Of a DNA stretch of 64,000 nucleotides, positions 25,353 to 31,645 are shown in pieces (within the stretch, counting starts at the first letter, position 1; every line of letters starts with the position of its first letter). Made by a program: the position numbers and the translations under genes. The notes beneath the pieces are model-generated. The model ran no database searches. It saw nothing but the letters and a program-made list of their open reading frames with translations, and had not been told where the DNA came from. Source of the stretch: Desulfovibrio sp. (GTDB taxonomy: Bacteria; Desulfobacterota; Desulfovibrionia; Desulfovibrionales; Desulfovibrionaceae); NCBI RefSeq assembly GCF_009712225.1, contig NZ_WASP01000008.1, positions 62,001-126,000 on the forward strand, read 5' to 3'.

Positions 25353-26187
25353 CACCTCATCACCAGTGCCGGGACATTTGTGTGTCTCCGGCATTTTGCT
25401 GGCAGCCTTGCTGTGCCTGTGGCATGCGCCCACCAGCGCGGCCACCAGCCAGTCGCCTGCGCCTTCCACGGTGTATGGCAAGGCTCCCCAGCTGCAGCCG
25501 GGGGCCATCACGGTTGCCCCATACGGAACCATGCGGTCTGACAACAGCTTGGACGACTACGACAATGAGCCTATCCAGAGCATTTCTGACCCCATCGAAC
25601 CCTGGAACCGGTTCTGGTTCCATTTCAACGACATATTCTTTCTGTATGTCGCCAGGCCGGCCTATACAGCGTGGGAAACGGTTACCCCGCACCAGCTGCG
25701 ATCAGGGCTGAAAAATTTCTTTTCCAACCTGCTTTTTCCTGTACGGTTTGTAAACAATATCTTGCAGTTCCGCTTTTTTGAAGCAGGCGTGGAGTTCGGG
25801 CGGTTTGTCATCAATACCACTTCCAGCGCAGGCTTTGCCGACGTGGCCAAGGGGCACAAAACCATTGTGCCGGTTGACCCCACGGGCGAGGACTTTGGCC
25901 AGACCCTTGGCCGCTGGGGGATTGGTCACGGTTTTTACATAGTATGGCCCATCATTGGCCCCAGCTCGGCGCGTGATACCGTTGGCCGTGCGGGCGACCT
26001 TTTTGCAGACCCCATGTTTTACCTGCAGCCCACCGAACTTGCCCTTGGCGTGGGCGGCAGCCTGCGGTTTAACGCCCTTGGCGACGTGCTGCCCCTCTAC
26101 GAAGACCTGAACACCGTGGCTGTAGACCCCTACATTGCCATGCGTGAGGCCTATGTTAACTTCCGCAAGGCGCAGGTTATGCATTAG
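25342..26187 (+). CDS. mlaA: Outer-membrane phospholipid-removal protein MlaA (VacJ)
   Basis: The 281-residue protein has an N-terminal hydrophobic stretch (about residues 14-32) that is probably a signal sequence; a clear lipobox Cys is not seen, so lipoprotein status is uncertain. The core carries 'DPIEPWNRFWFHFND', 'GRFVINTTSSAGFADVA', 'EDFGQTLGRWGIGHGFYIVW' and 'GPSSARDTVG', the conserved VacJ/MlaA blocks. MlaA removes misplaced phospholipids from the outer leaflet of the outer membrane and hands them to MlaC. A good terminator follows, so mlaA closes the operon. Confidence 0.9.
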   Translation: MGSNTSSPVPGHLCVSGILLAALLCLWHAPTSAATSQSPAPSTVYGKAPQLQPGAITVAPYGTMRSDNSLDDYDNEPIQSISDPIEPWNRFWFHFNDIFFLYVARPAYTAWETVTPHQLRSGLKNFFSNLLFPVRFVNNILQFRFFEAGVEFGRFVINTTSSAGFADVAKGHKTIVPVDPTGEDFGQTLGRWGIGHGFYIVWPIIGPSSARDTVGRAGDLFADPMFYLQPTELALGVGGSLRFNALGDVLPLYEDLNTVAVDPYIAMREAYVNFRKAQVMH

Positions 26188-26210
26188 GCGTAGTTAGTAC
26201 AAACTGAATG

Positions 26211-26257
26211 AAAGCCTCTGGCGGAAACATGTTGTTTCAAAGCCGGGGGCTTTTTTT
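26211..26257 (+). terminator. Rho-independent terminator after mlaA
   Basis: AAGCCTCTGGC (26212-26222) pairs with GCCGGGGGCTT (26242-26252), an 11-bp stem with two G-U pairs, followed by seven Ts. Confidence 0.88.
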
Positions 26258-26302
26258 GCACCCTCTGATTCATTTTTTGCTGCACCTCAAACACGATGTT
26301 TT

Positions 26303-26458
26303 TCGCCTGTCAGGCGATTAGGACGCCTATGCAACCGCGAAAGGTAGAGGTTATGCGACTAAGCCATTAAGTCTGGTGCAAATCCATTTTGCGGGTTTGG
26401 ACTGCCCTCGACGGCATTGCCGCCGGGCGGAAAGGCGCGGATATCATTCCTGACAGGC
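26303..26458 (+). ncRNA. Candidate structured RNA or riboswitch, family not recognised
   Basis: The 315 bp between the mlaA terminator and the OppD-like gene hold dense secondary-structure potential. A 10-bp inverted repeat (GCCTGTCAGG at 26305-26314 and CCTGACAGGC at 26449-26458) could close a ~150-nt domain. Inside are CAAATCC/GGGTTTG (26379-26385 with 26393-26399) stacked on AGTC/GACT (26370-26373 with 26400-26403); GCCC/GGGC enclosing CGGC/GCCG (26404-26428); and AACC/GGTT (26333-26336 with 26349-26352). The 5' arm can instead form a local hairpin, TCGCCT/AGGCGA (26303-26317), which would be exclusive with the closing stem. An eight-T run at 26538-26545 follows. The arms are themselves near-palindromes, which weakens the case. 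Strand is inferred from the downstream gene. Confidence 0.45.
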
Positions 26459-26537
26459 TCTACACCGCTACCGAACTCCCCTGCCTCTGGCCCCCTACCC
26501 TTCGCTTTCCATCCGGGGCAAGCCTCAACCAACAAGC

Positions 26538-26545
26538 TTTTTTTT
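26538..26545 (+). terminator. Possible weak terminator or expression platform before the OppD-like gene
   Basis: AAGC (26530s) and GGGGCAAGC upstream can pair with GCTT and TTGCCCC around an eight-T run, 28 bp before the ATG at 26573. The stem is short, so termination is doubtful unless it is regulated. Confidence 0.3.
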
Positions 26546-26572
26546 GCCCCCGCCTTCTGTTAGGCTCAAAAC

Positions 26573-27559
26573 ATGAACGAGCCCCAAGCCCCCTCCGCCC
26601 CCCTGCTGCAACTGGATAACCTGTCGGTGACCTTTACAACGACAAACGGCCCCCTGCATGCCGTGCGCAATGTGGATTTCAGCATGAACGAGGGCGAAAC
26701 GGTCTGTCTTGTGGGCGAATCCGGCTGCGGCAAAAGCCTTACGGCCAAAGCTATCATGCGTCTTGCACCAGCCAATGCTGTGCTTGGCGGACGCATACTG
26801 TTGCACGGACAAAACCTGCTGGACCTGCCGGAAAAATCCATGCACACGGTGCGCGGGCGCCAGATCGGCATGATCTTTCAGGAGCCCATGACATCCCTCA
26901 ACCCGGTGCTCAAGGTTGGCGACCAGGTGGCAGAGCCATTGCGCCTGCACGAAGGTCTGAACCGCGCGCAGGCCCGCGAGGCGGCCATAGAACTGCTGAC
27001 CGAGGTTGGCATTCCCGCGCCTCAAAGCAGGTACGATGATTACCCCCACCAGCTCTCGGGTGGCATGCGCCAGCGCGTCATGATTGCCATGGCCCTGTCG
27101 TGCAGACCGGGGCTGCTGCTGGCCGACGAGCCAACCACCGCTCTGGACGCCACAATTCAGGGGCAGATTCTGCGCCTGCTTGCCGCCCGCTGCCACGAAC
27201 GCCGCATGGCCGTGCTGCTGATCACCCACGATCTGGGCGTTGCGGCCCAAATGGCCGACACCGTGGGCGTCATGTACGCGGGCAGGCTGGTTGAGAGCGC
27301 CCCGGCGCAAGATCTGTTTGCCGATGCGCGCCACCCCTACACTCAAGGGTTGCTGCACGCCGCACCCAGCGCCCGCTCACGCGGTCTCGAGCGCCTGCCC
27401 ACCATACCGGGTACGGTTCCCTCGCTGCAAAACATGCCTGCGGGCTGTCCCTTTCACCCCCGCTGCACGGCGGCCATGCCCCGCTGCAAGACAGAAATGC
27501 CGCCCACCATTGCCCAGGGCGCGCACCGCACAGCCTGCTGGCTGGTAAACCCTGCCTGA
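26573..27559 (+). CDS. OppD/DppD-type ABC transporter ATPase, without its transporter partners
   Basis: This 328-residue ATPase has Walker A 'GESGCGKS' at residues 48-55, '[16 protein letters not shown]' (Q-loop typical of the peptide/nickel family), signature '[15 protein letters not shown]' and Walker B '[11 protein letters not shown]'. The C-terminal peptide-transporter extension has '[14 protein letters not shown]', whose cysteines bind an Fe-S cluster in some relatives. It would energise import of peptides, nickel or similar solutes. No permease, binding protein or second ATPase gene is adjacent: upstream is a structured RNA candidate and downstream a chemoreceptor. It must work with subunits encoded elsewhere or be a remnant. 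Confidence 0.85.
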
Positions 27560-27949
27560 GATGACAACGGGCCTGGCCCTTTGTCGCCGCCTGTGCACTT
27601 TGAGCCTCGAGCATCAAGAAACACAATCATCACGCTTAGCCAATAGCCAGGTCCCCCTTGCGCAGACATATTGCCTCTGCTATAAACCTTTTCTTCAAAA
27701 CTCCGTAAGTTCAGATAGTAGATTGCCGGGTTTTCGCCTGTTCGATGGCCCGCATTCCTCCGCCGCAAAAGCGCATCGCCCCCCCATAATTGCGATACGC
27801 AGGCACTGTCCTTGTATTTGCGGCGCATTCTCTCTCCGCCAGACTGTCAGTTGAAGGCCGCCCCCCTTTGCGGCCCATGTTTGCTGCCAACGTAACTCTG
27901 ACCTGCCACAGGCAGGCCGGTGTTCAGCTGTATGTGGAGGAAGCCTTAC
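27560..27949. other. 390-bp intergenic region before a chemoreceptor gene
   Basis: No gene or strong hairpin was found. The final 20 bp hold the GGAGGA ribosome site of the chemoreceptor gene. A promoter must lie here, but no convincing -35/-10, sigma-28 or sigma-54 site was seen. Confidence 0.4.
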
Positions 27950-29707
27950 ATGAAACTTGGCGCAAAACTTGTGCTCTCCTTCGGCTGTCTGATTGCGGTA
28001 ATTCTGGTCTCTTCTGCCATTACCATTCGCAACGTGGGTGAAATGAACGGCAAAGTGCGCGAAATTGACGAAGCGTGGCTGCCCTCTGTCATTGCCATTC
28101 AGTCCATGAATGTGCAGCTAAATTCCCTGCGCGCTGACCTTGCGTCAATTATGTCGCAAAACTATGCGGAAGAAATCCACAAGTACGAAAAGAATCTTCA
28201 GGATTCCATAAATTCCATCCAGCGCGACCATACTGCCTACATGCAGCTGCGCAGCACCACCCCCGGCATGGAAACAGAAGAAGGCAAGGCGCTGATGACG
28301 CGCATTGCCGACCTTTCCGAACAGGAAAGCAAGGCGCGCGACGGCATCATCAAGGGAGTACTGGACGGGAGGCGCGGGGTGGCCAATGTGGCCTATGACA
28401 AAAAATATCGCCCTGTATTCCAGCAGCTTGGCGACACGTACGGCGAAGTGGTTCACATAAATGTTACCGGCAGCAAGGCGGCGGCCCAAAGTGCAGCAGA
28501 CGCGGGGCAAAAAACCAGCAACATGTCCATTGCCATAACACTGGCGGCAGTGCTCATCAGCATCTGCATTACATGGATACTCACCCGTTCGGTTGGTCGC
28601 CAGCTGGGTAAAGATCCTGGCGAACTGGCGGTCATTGCCCGCCGTGTTGCCAACGGCGATTATGATATAGACGACGGCGGCCCCAAAACCGGCGTCTACG
28701 CCGACATGGTTTCCATGGCGCAAACACTCAAGGAGAACATGGCCCGGGCAAGGCAGGAATCGGAAAACGCCCGCAACAGTGCGCAGCAGATAGAGCAGGC
28801 GCTACGGCAGGCAGAGGAAGCAAGCACAGAAGCCCAAAGCAAAACCACGGCCATGCGCGCGGCAGCAGCCAGTCTTCAGGATGTGGCGCACGTGGTAAAT
28901 GTGGCCACCACCCAGCTCGCGACGCAGATCGAGCAGTCCGACAAAGGCTCGCGGCAAACTACCGGCAGGCTCACAGAAGCGGCCACTGCCATGCAGCAGA
29001 TGAACGTGACCGTGCAGGAAGTGGCCCGCAATGCTTCTGTTGCCTCGCAAGCCTCCACCGAAACACGCATCAAGGCCGAAAACGGCTCGGAAATCGTCAA
29101 GCGATCCCTGCACAGCATCGACGAGGTGCACAAGGTTTCCATGGAGCTTAAAGACGACATGGCGCAACTGAACGAGCACACGCAGAATATCAACCGCATC
29201 ATGGGCGTCATTTCAGACATAGCCGACCAGACCAACCTGTTGGCCCTCAACGCGGCCATAGAAGCGGCCCGCGCGGGCGATGCCGGGCGCGGCTTTGCCG
29301 TGGTGGCCGACGAAGTGCGCAAACTGGCGGAAAAAACCGTGGCATCCACCCGCGATGTGGCAAATGCCATTGAGGCCATCCAGTCCAGCGCCACACAGAG
29401 TATCAATTCTGTGGACAAGGCCGCCAGACAGATAGAAGAAGCGAACGATTACGCCAACCAGTCTGGCGTGGCGCTTGCCGATATTGTGGCCACCATCGAG
29501 AGCACGGCGGATCAGGTAAACGCCATTGCCGCTGCCAGCGAACAGCAGTCTGCCGCCAGCGACGAGGTAAATGGAGCCATCAGCGAAATCAACGAGATGT
29601 CACAGCAAACCACGCAGGCCATGGGGCAGGCGGCAGAGGCCGTTGCCAACCTTGCGGCCCAGGCCCGTAACCTCATGGAACTGGTGGAGGCCATGAACCG
29701 CGACTGA
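27950..29707 (+). CDS. Methyl-accepting chemotaxis protein (4-helix-bundle sensor)
   Basis: The start at 27950 has GGAGGA 8 bp upstream; an upstream frame to 27920 is not used. The ~585-residue receptor has TM1 (residues ~5-25), a periplasmic four-helix-bundle sensor to ~185, TM2 (~188-210), a HAMP segment beginning '[20 protein letters not shown]', and a long coiled-coil signalling domain. The hairpin tip, '[20 protein letters not shown]', contacts CheA and CheW. It reports a periplasmic ligand to the chemotaxis kinase. No C-terminal CheR/CheB-binding pentapeptide is evident. Its signalling half is almost identical to that of the next gene. A strong terminator follows. Confidence 0.93.
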
Positions 29708-29751
29708 TCCTGAGGCCCTGCCAGCAAAGCCAGATACCCGCATCAACTGAC

Positions 29752-29782
29752 AAAGCGGTGGTTTTTAAACCACCGCTTTTTT
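29752..29782 (+). terminator. Rho-independent terminator after the first chemoreceptor gene
   Basis: A perfect 13-bp stem (29752-29764 with 29767-29779) ends in a six-T run (29777-29782). Confidence 0.93.
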
Positions 29783-29887
29783 GCGTTGCATGCCTTGCAA
29801 TCTCTATAAAAACCATTAGCACGCTAATTGCATAGTATATACAGTCATCGCAGGTGCGTGGCGCACAAATTCAGGAGGTGATAGCCT

Positions 29888-31645
29888 ATGCGACTAATTG
29901 TAAAACTTGGCTTATCTTTCTTTCTTATTACACTTGTAATACTTGCCATGAGTGGAATATCAATTAAAAATATTTCATCAATGAATAAAAAATTTACTGA
30001 AATAGACACATCTCTTCTTCCATCACTCATTGAATTACAGGAAATGCAGCTGAAATTCTGGATAATCCGTTCAGACGTATTGGCTCTTATTTCACAAACT
30101 GCCTCCTCAGAGATAGAACGCTACACCACCAACATCACCAGCACTCTGGATTCCATCAGGGAAAACCACGACAGGTATTTTGAAATAGTTGGCGAATCTG
30201 AAGACGAAAGCCATACTAAAGCCAAAGATCTCATTGAAAAAATAGACGCAATTTCACGCAAACTGAATACAGTTCGCAAGGAAATTCTTGCATTTGTTCA
30301 GTGTGAAGAACGTGGTGAAGCAATAAGTATTTTTGAAAAAAAATACACCCCGCTTTTCAGCAGCCTTGCTCCTCTCTATGCAGAACTTATGGAACTTACA
30401 AAATCTGAAAGTAGAAAGGCTACTGCAGAGGCAGTTACTACCGGAGAAAATGCCGTCACAGGTGCATTTATTCTCAGTGCTGCCGCAGTGCTGTTCAGTA
30501 TCATTGTTTCGCTGGTGCTTTCGCGCTCCATCAAGCGGCAGCTTGGCAAGGATCCCGGCGAGCTTCAGGCGGTGGCAAGCCGTGTTGCCGCTGGCGACTA
30601 CGACATTAATGACGCAAAGAACGACAGCATGGGCGTATATGCATCCATTGTTGCCATGGTACAGGCCCTTAAAACCCACATAGAAAGCGCCCAGCGCGAA
30701 TCGCAGATAGCCAGGGAGCAATCGGCCAAGGCCAACGAAGCGCTGCGCCAGACTGAAGAGGCCAACTTGCAGGCTCAAAGCAAAACCGAGGCGCTTCGCA
30801 CTGCCGCCGCCAGACTTCAGGAAGTGGCCCAGGTGGTAAGCGCCGCCACCACGCGCCTGGCCGCCCAGATCGAGCAGTCTGACAAGGGCGCGCACGAAAC
30901 CTCGGCCAGACTGAGCGAGGCCGCTTCTGCCATGCAGCAGATGAATGCCACGGTGCAGGAAGTGGCCCGCAACGCATCCGTCGCTTCGCAGGCCTCCAGC
31001 GAAACACGCGACAAAGCCGAAAATGGCTCGGAAATCGTCAAGCGTTCCCTGCACAGCATTGATCTGGTGCATCAGACTTCCATGACGCTGCGGGACGACA
31101 TGTCGCAGCTGCATAACCACACGCAGAACATCAACCGCATCATGGGCGTCATTTCAGACATTGCCGACCAGACCAACCTGCTGGCCCTCAACGCGGCCAT
31201 CGAGGCCGCACGCGCGGGCGACGCCGGGCGCGGTTTTGCCGTGGTGGCCGACGAGGTGCGCAAGCTGGCGGAAAAAACCATGGCCTCGACCCACGATGTG
31301 GCCAGCGCCATTGAAGCCATACAATCCAGCGCCACTCAGAGTATGGACTCTGTGGACAAGGCCGCCAAGCAGATTGAAGAGGCCAACACCTATGCCAACC
31401 AATCTGGTGTGGCTCTGGCCGATGTTGTCTCCACGGTCGAGGGCACTGCCGACCAGGTCAATGCCATTGCCGCAGCCAGCGAAGAGCAGTCGGCAGCGAG
31501 CGAAGAGGTAAACCGCGCCATAACCCAGATCAGCGAGATGTCGCACCAGACATCGGCTGCCATGCGCGAGGCCGCAGACGCGGTGGCGGAACTGGCCGGG
31601 CAGACAAAAAACCTTATGGATCTGATGTCCAGCATGCAGCAATAA
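29888..31645 (+). CDS. Methyl-accepting chemotaxis protein (AT-rich sensor half)
   Basis: This 585-residue receptor is preceded by AGGAGGTGA. TM1 covers residues ~7-27, the periplasmic four-helix-type sensor runs to ~195, and TM2 is near '[20 protein letters not shown]'. HAMP begins '[14 protein letters not shown]', and the signalling domain has the same hairpin tip as its neighbour. From 29888 to about 30480 the DNA is markedly AT-rich, with TTT, AAA and ATA codons, while the rest is GC-rich and nearly the same as the upstream receptor. This suggests a foreign or fast-evolving sensor domain joined to, or converted with, the local signalling module. The ligand is unknown. Confidence 0.92.

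Follow-up and report, generated by a model that had tools for sequence, protein, structure and literature searches.

A riboswitch-like block upstream of an oppD-like gene of Desulfovibrio is very probably an eroded mosaic of dispersed repeats

A folded block of about 150 nt lies between mlaA and an oppD-like gene in the window, the 64,000-nt stretch of Desulfovibrio DNA analysed here (contig NZ_WASP01000008.1), and had been proposed as a candidate structured RNA of riboswitch type. We find that it is very probably an eroded mosaic of dispersed repeats with no regulatory role for oppD, in which a truncated copy of a structured element, here called B, is nested in the front part of a longer repeat, A...C, and that B itself is probably a nonautonomous mobile element; we hold this joint reading with high confidence. 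Element B, found through the block, is the part of this analysis that merits further work.

Layout of the mlaA-oppD interval

The features of the interval are collected in Table 1. Direct reading confirms that the two arms of the 10-bp inverted repeat are exact reverse complements, that a local hairpin is present around 26303–26317 (with counterparts in other copies of A), and that the predicted internal stems of the block exist. The clear terminator reported for mlaA is also present, and the locus alignment contains its counterpart, with letters changed, at L149, L150, and L152. The assignment of the downstream gene as OppD-like agrees with its Pfam matches. The run of eight T residues is likewise real, but it begins 80 nt past the 3′ arm rather than directly after the block, 28 nt before the ATG of the oppD-like gene, and persists in relatives without the block. 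Further downstream (27920–31645) are two similar neighbouring genes, which from their translations we take to encode methyl-accepting chemotaxis proteins.

Table 1. Features between mlaA and the oppD-like gene, in window positions
Feature	Position	Strand	Basis or remark
Intrinsic terminator of mlaA	about 26212–26257	+	Read from the sequence; outside the block
Eroded 5′ part of dispersed repeat A...C	26279–26363	+	Alignments and profile of A
Left arm of 10-bp inverted repeat, GCCTGTCAGG	26305–26314	+	Within the local hairpin
Truncated copy of structured element B	26376–26454	+	Model match and BLAST
Right arm of inverted repeat, CCTGACAGGC	26449–26458 (feature to 26460)	+	Probable 3′ terminus of C, CCTGACAGGCTC, or else an altered continuation of B
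T8 run	26538–26545	+	Kept upstream of oppD-like genes with or without the block
Possible extended −10 element	26559–26566	+	6 nt before the ATG; suggested by conservation of TGnTA
OppD-like ABC transporter ATPase	26573–27559	+	Pfam ABC_tran, 2.5e-30; oligo_HPY, 5.7e-21

Strength and conservation of the closing stem

The minimum-energy fold of the plus strand of the block includes the closing stem. The folding z-score of this strand is −1.69, with 15 of 200 shuffles folding equally well, and the minus strand folds better (z-score of −3.15; 1 of 200 shuffles as good). Inverted repeats of at least 10 bp with a 60- to 200-nt loop arise in 68 of 2,000 dinucleotide shuffles of 26190–26572 (153 of 2,000 if any loop is allowed), and also occur in 3 of 167 equal-sized tiles of the window; the original caution that the near-palindromic arms might pair by chance was apt. 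At gathering thresholds, Rfam identifies a single tRNA in the whole window, and a permissive search (to E 10) of 26180–26620 returns three subthreshold matches of 7.9 to 18.3 bits, none of them within the block proper; the note had likewise found no fit to the seven riboswitch patterns that it considered. Consensus scans, limited to loops of 3 to 8 nt in the case of terminators and missing the mlaA terminator too, revealed neither a plus-strand terminator at the T8 run nor a sigma-70 promoter upstream of the oppD-like gene, and a plasmid search with the block gave no match.

We compared the closing stem in register among 11 distinct elements, with L032 belonging to both sets. All 10 pairs are formed in the window, compared with one to four of the 10 in eight A...C elements and, likewise, one to four of the 10 in four A-B composites; the outcome is the same whether the right arm is taken as C or as B. 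The original prediction held that a lack of compensatory changes among homologues would speak against it, and with so few pairs kept this is what the comparison gives. The long-range 10-bp stem thus appears to be an accident of a deletion, formed by chance pairing.

The oppD-like gene is matched at E 1e-100 in 73 of 79 genomes of the genus, and we inspected the mlaA-oppD junction in 12 relatives. Genomes G101 and G052 carry a full A...C repeat (about 715 nt) without B between the two genes, the shorter junction of G042 looks like a decayed A, and G037 has a 103-nt gap with no block. In G102 and G011 only the part near oppD is visible and ends in a C-like tail; in G017, G110, G055, and G059 there is no mlaA match in the stretch examined, and in G013 and G023 the examined sequence stops at the oppD-like gene. 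The T8 run is present in all six relatives with a comparable junction (G042, G101, G102, G052, G011, and G037); because it is conserved regardless of the block, it is not the block's terminator. TGnTA and its 6-nt spacing to the ATG are kept in L149 to L153 and L159, and could represent an extended −10 element giving a nearly leaderless oppD mRNA.

Mosaic make-up of the block

The block was searched against 101 genomes (its own and 100 relatives). Outside its own genome, it matches G052 (E 1.5e-14) and several G013 sites best; among the matches listed, every one with an E value under 1e-4 belongs to the same genus, and short matches up to E 1, which carry little meaning, are found in 82 of the 101 genomes. 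Four loci (L032, L033, L034, and the first copy of L035) align with the block over nearly its whole length, and from these two modules can be seen: A, the front of a dispersed repeat, and B, which lies inside A. The block's own genome has five places where a back part, C, comes after A, the two together spanning about 390 to 690 nt, and four other matches to B; at other loci B stands alone, outside A.

The A...C repeat (L180 to L184 in the same genome, and L150 and L152) is 390 to 715 nt long and rich in inverted repeats, and all five copies in this genome are in the plus orientation of their contigs. B is present at an identical place within A at four loci (L032 to L035; three in G013 and one in G052), so that either B targets the hairpin of A or the composite has multiplied.

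In the window, the best match to the A profile is 26297–26355, but with an E value of 0.037, and the C profile at the right end of the block ranks seventh and is not significant (E 5.7). At the orthologous locus, the end of C is identical to the right arm in 12 of 12 letters; a local alignment favours the C end, with these 12 identical letters, over B, and two other alignments, BLAST included, put the first letters of the arm in B. We consider it probable from these alignments that the right arm is the 3′ end of C. The copy of B is better defined, matching the model at 26376–26466 (41.2 bits, E 3.3e-9) and, by BLAST, G052 at 26388–26454 (85% identity, E 1.5e-14). It lacks 39 model positions from the middle; helix 1 is largely kept, helix 3 has been lost, and little of helix 2 is left. 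With a flank score of 5 it has no flanking hairpin repeat, and is thus a degenerate B fragment at most. Given the A...C repeat of about 715 nt at this locus in G101 and G052, and the much shorter window copy with the front of B inside A, an order also seen at three G013 loci and one G052 locus elsewhere, we infer that sequence close to the end of C was fused to the middle of B by a deletion and that the 10-bp inverted repeat arose by chance.

How do these data bear on the reading, following from the original prediction, that the block is a riboswitch or other cis-regulatory leader of the oppD-like gene, with the choice between pairings of the 5′ arm determining termination at T8? Like riboswitches, the block is a folded stretch upstream of a transporter gene, both pairings and the T run exist in the sequence, and the closing stem is part of the plus-strand fold. 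However, that stem is private to the window copy, orthologous loci have no block, a decayed one, or a related repeat without B while T8 is still there, the consensus scan places no terminator after the block, and the possible −10 element six nucleotides before the ATG would leave almost no leader. The homologues are multicopy and lie beside many different genes rather than being tied to one, and the block is not kept at orthologous loci, an outcome that the original prediction itself took to count against it. We therefore regard regulation of oppD by this mechanism as extremely improbable, and we rejected riboswitches of any class, there being no aptamer family match, no conserved structure in orthologous leaders, and no gene association. 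What survives of the predicted structured element is that B, a covarying element, contributes to the block. That the truncated B of the window still works independently of oppD as a structured element, in RNA or DNA form, would be in keeping with B being a covarying family and with the retention of much of helix 1, yet the losses in helices 2 and 3 and the missing hairpin repeat make this quite improbable too. Some observations sit less well with a mosaic of dispersed repeats, including the same missing hairpin repeat around B, the weak A and nonsignificant C matches, the alignments in which the right arm begins in B instead of C, and a minus strand that folds better than 199 of 200 shuffles. 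Nonetheless, the mosaic is the reading that we strongly prefer.

Structure and distribution of element B

A MAFFT alignment of 17 copies gives a consensus for B of about 150 nt with four helices. In these copies, 21 of 38 pairs change on both sides, compared with 8.1 ± 1.9 in shuffles; none of 500 shuffles is as high, and structures slid along the alignment give two to eight pairs. With 91 matches (90 distinct) fitted to the model, an alignment that is biased toward the model, the numbers are 34 of 38 pairs and 21.3 in shuffles. B is present in at least 25 of 79 genomes of the genus at E 0.001, with at least 18 matches in the richest genome; these are lower bounds because at most 39 candidates per genome were scored and the filters were strict. 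Across the order, 26 of 247 genomes have B at E 1e-5, all of them in the window's own family and distributed among 7 of 51 genera. A strict B pattern matched three stretches in a named genome collection, titled Deltaproteobacteria bacterium or uncultured Desulfovibrio, and gave no match in viral contigs, and one B copy had no match in phages and plasmids.

B adjoins terminator-like hairpins and many different genes. Among 57 loci, with orientations from a crude open reading frame picker that yields many overlaps, the flanking genes are arranged + B − at 24, − B − at 13, + B + at 10, and − B + at 8, with one side missing at 2. Tandem pairs of B, about 150 to 190 nt start to start and with a hairpin or similar spacer between, are seen in L114, L144, L111, L131, and L097. 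A gathering-threshold Rfam search of 13 loci found one tRNA, no intron, and no family for B, and the best match in a permissive search of one B locus is Acido-1, at 20.6 bits compared with a gathering score of 50. Peptide strings had at first suggested a small protein from the minus strand or an antisense RNA of phage type; this reading was dropped because the open frames differ among 18 copies and the Rfam searches gave no such family. We found no description of B or of similar behaviour in Rfam or in the portions of the literature searched, including parts of PMC2267715, PMC12306157, and PMC4424553, and by these two sources B is apparently undescribed.

Hairpins flanking B and sites without B

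We compared the flanks of 82 of the 91 matches, which come from 77 selected sources; the nine left out are one duplicate locus, three copies cut by contig ends, two partial tandem copies, two antisense matches, and one further L110 match. A direct repeat between the flanks reaches a score of 15 in 48 and a score of 12 in 54 of the 82, compared with 0.53% and 1.1%, respectively, of mispaired controls (n = 3,000), although the 82 are not independent, since tandem copies and orthologous copies from close relatives are included. At score 15, no hairpin repeat is seen in the remaining 34 copies. Each locus has its own hairpin as the repeated flank (for example, at L036, L035:10530–10674, L039, L046, and L123). 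Among 38 clear, hand-picked cases, one was under the cut; in the 37 used, the repeated hairpin has a median length of 27 nt (range, 13 to 37), both flanking stems score at least 6 in 31, and the number of T residues after the hairpin averages 4.0 downstream and 2.1 upstream (higher downstream in 27, lower in 7; p = 6e-5). At L108 and L056, the loops of the two hairpins around B are reverse complements, as if one had been inverted.

Relatives without B are informative at two sites. At the second L035 copy, in G013, B is flanked on each side by a 28-nt hairpin, and the corresponding site without B has one hairpin in the window's own genome (L203), G042, and G052; the excerpt from G101 has no such hairpin. 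Similarly, the L036 site has one hairpin and no B in G042, G101, and G102; in the window's own genome this site is an N run and is unusable for the comparison. At L199 of that genome (G000:C7, near 121650), an assembly N run with homopolymer G and C flanks lies beside a hairpin, at the position where G013 carries B. The better B copy of the same genome, L096, lies between two similar hairpins by eye, with an automatic score of only 6.

A tentative model for the movement of B

Because the length of the repeat tracks that of the hairpin and the U run tends to lie with the downstream copy, we favour a model in which B enters at the 3′ edge of the stem and the hairpin is copied; because the repeated length varies, copying that follows the hairpin is likelier than the action of a transposase with a fixed stagger. 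We tentatively propose, as a possible rather than a probable account, that B is a new mobile structured RNA of about 150 nt whose insertion separates the stem of an intrinsic terminator from its U run and places a copy of the target hairpin on the far side of B. The gene would still end in a hairpin and U run, and B would be transcribed as an untranslated 3′ tail without breaking termination. A rather unlikely alternative is a joint tandem duplication of hairpin and B, by slippage, instead of copying of the hairpin on insertion. Tandem B copies do exist, and the loops of paired hairpins differ at some loci, which exchange from hairpin to hairpin would also produce; nonetheless, the hairpins are locus specific while B is common to the loci, and at two loci relatives have a single hairpin and no B. 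As for a mover, reverse transcriptase (RVT_1) is present in 9 of 25 genus genomes with B and 11 of 54 without, and Y1 transposase in 14 of 25 and 29 of 54, respectively; neither follows B across the 79 genomes, and both were rejected. The window's own genome has no Y1 transposase at E 1e-8 and no reverse transcriptase at the threshold used.

Comparison with known systems

B resembles REP/BIME and other dispersed stem-loop repeats in being multicopy, intergenic, foldable, and often between convergent genes, but it differs in its four covarying helices and in the direct repeat of the local hairpin, and Y1 transposases do not follow it. Its size, about 150 nt, also differs from that of REP elements. 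Like MITEs, B is short and multicopy, has no conserved reading frame, and has direct repeats at its borders; in contrast, what is repeated at the flanks is an entire hairpin, variable in length, and no terminal inverted repeats were noticed by eye. Group IIC introns, according to PMC4424553, insert at intrinsic terminators, and B is found at similar places, flanked by terminator hairpins. However, B is far shorter, duplicates the hairpin, has no Rfam intron match in the 13 loci searched, and has no link to reverse transcriptase.

Implications

The block in the window is ordinary and of low interest by itself, but B, found through it, deserves follow-up. A false riboswitch lead is removed, and the locus illustrates that a nested, partly deleted repeat can imitate a riboswitch. 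If B behaves as proposed, it would represent a mobile element whose damage is kept small through duplication of an entire terminator hairpin, and the model yields testable predictions about transcription through gene ends.
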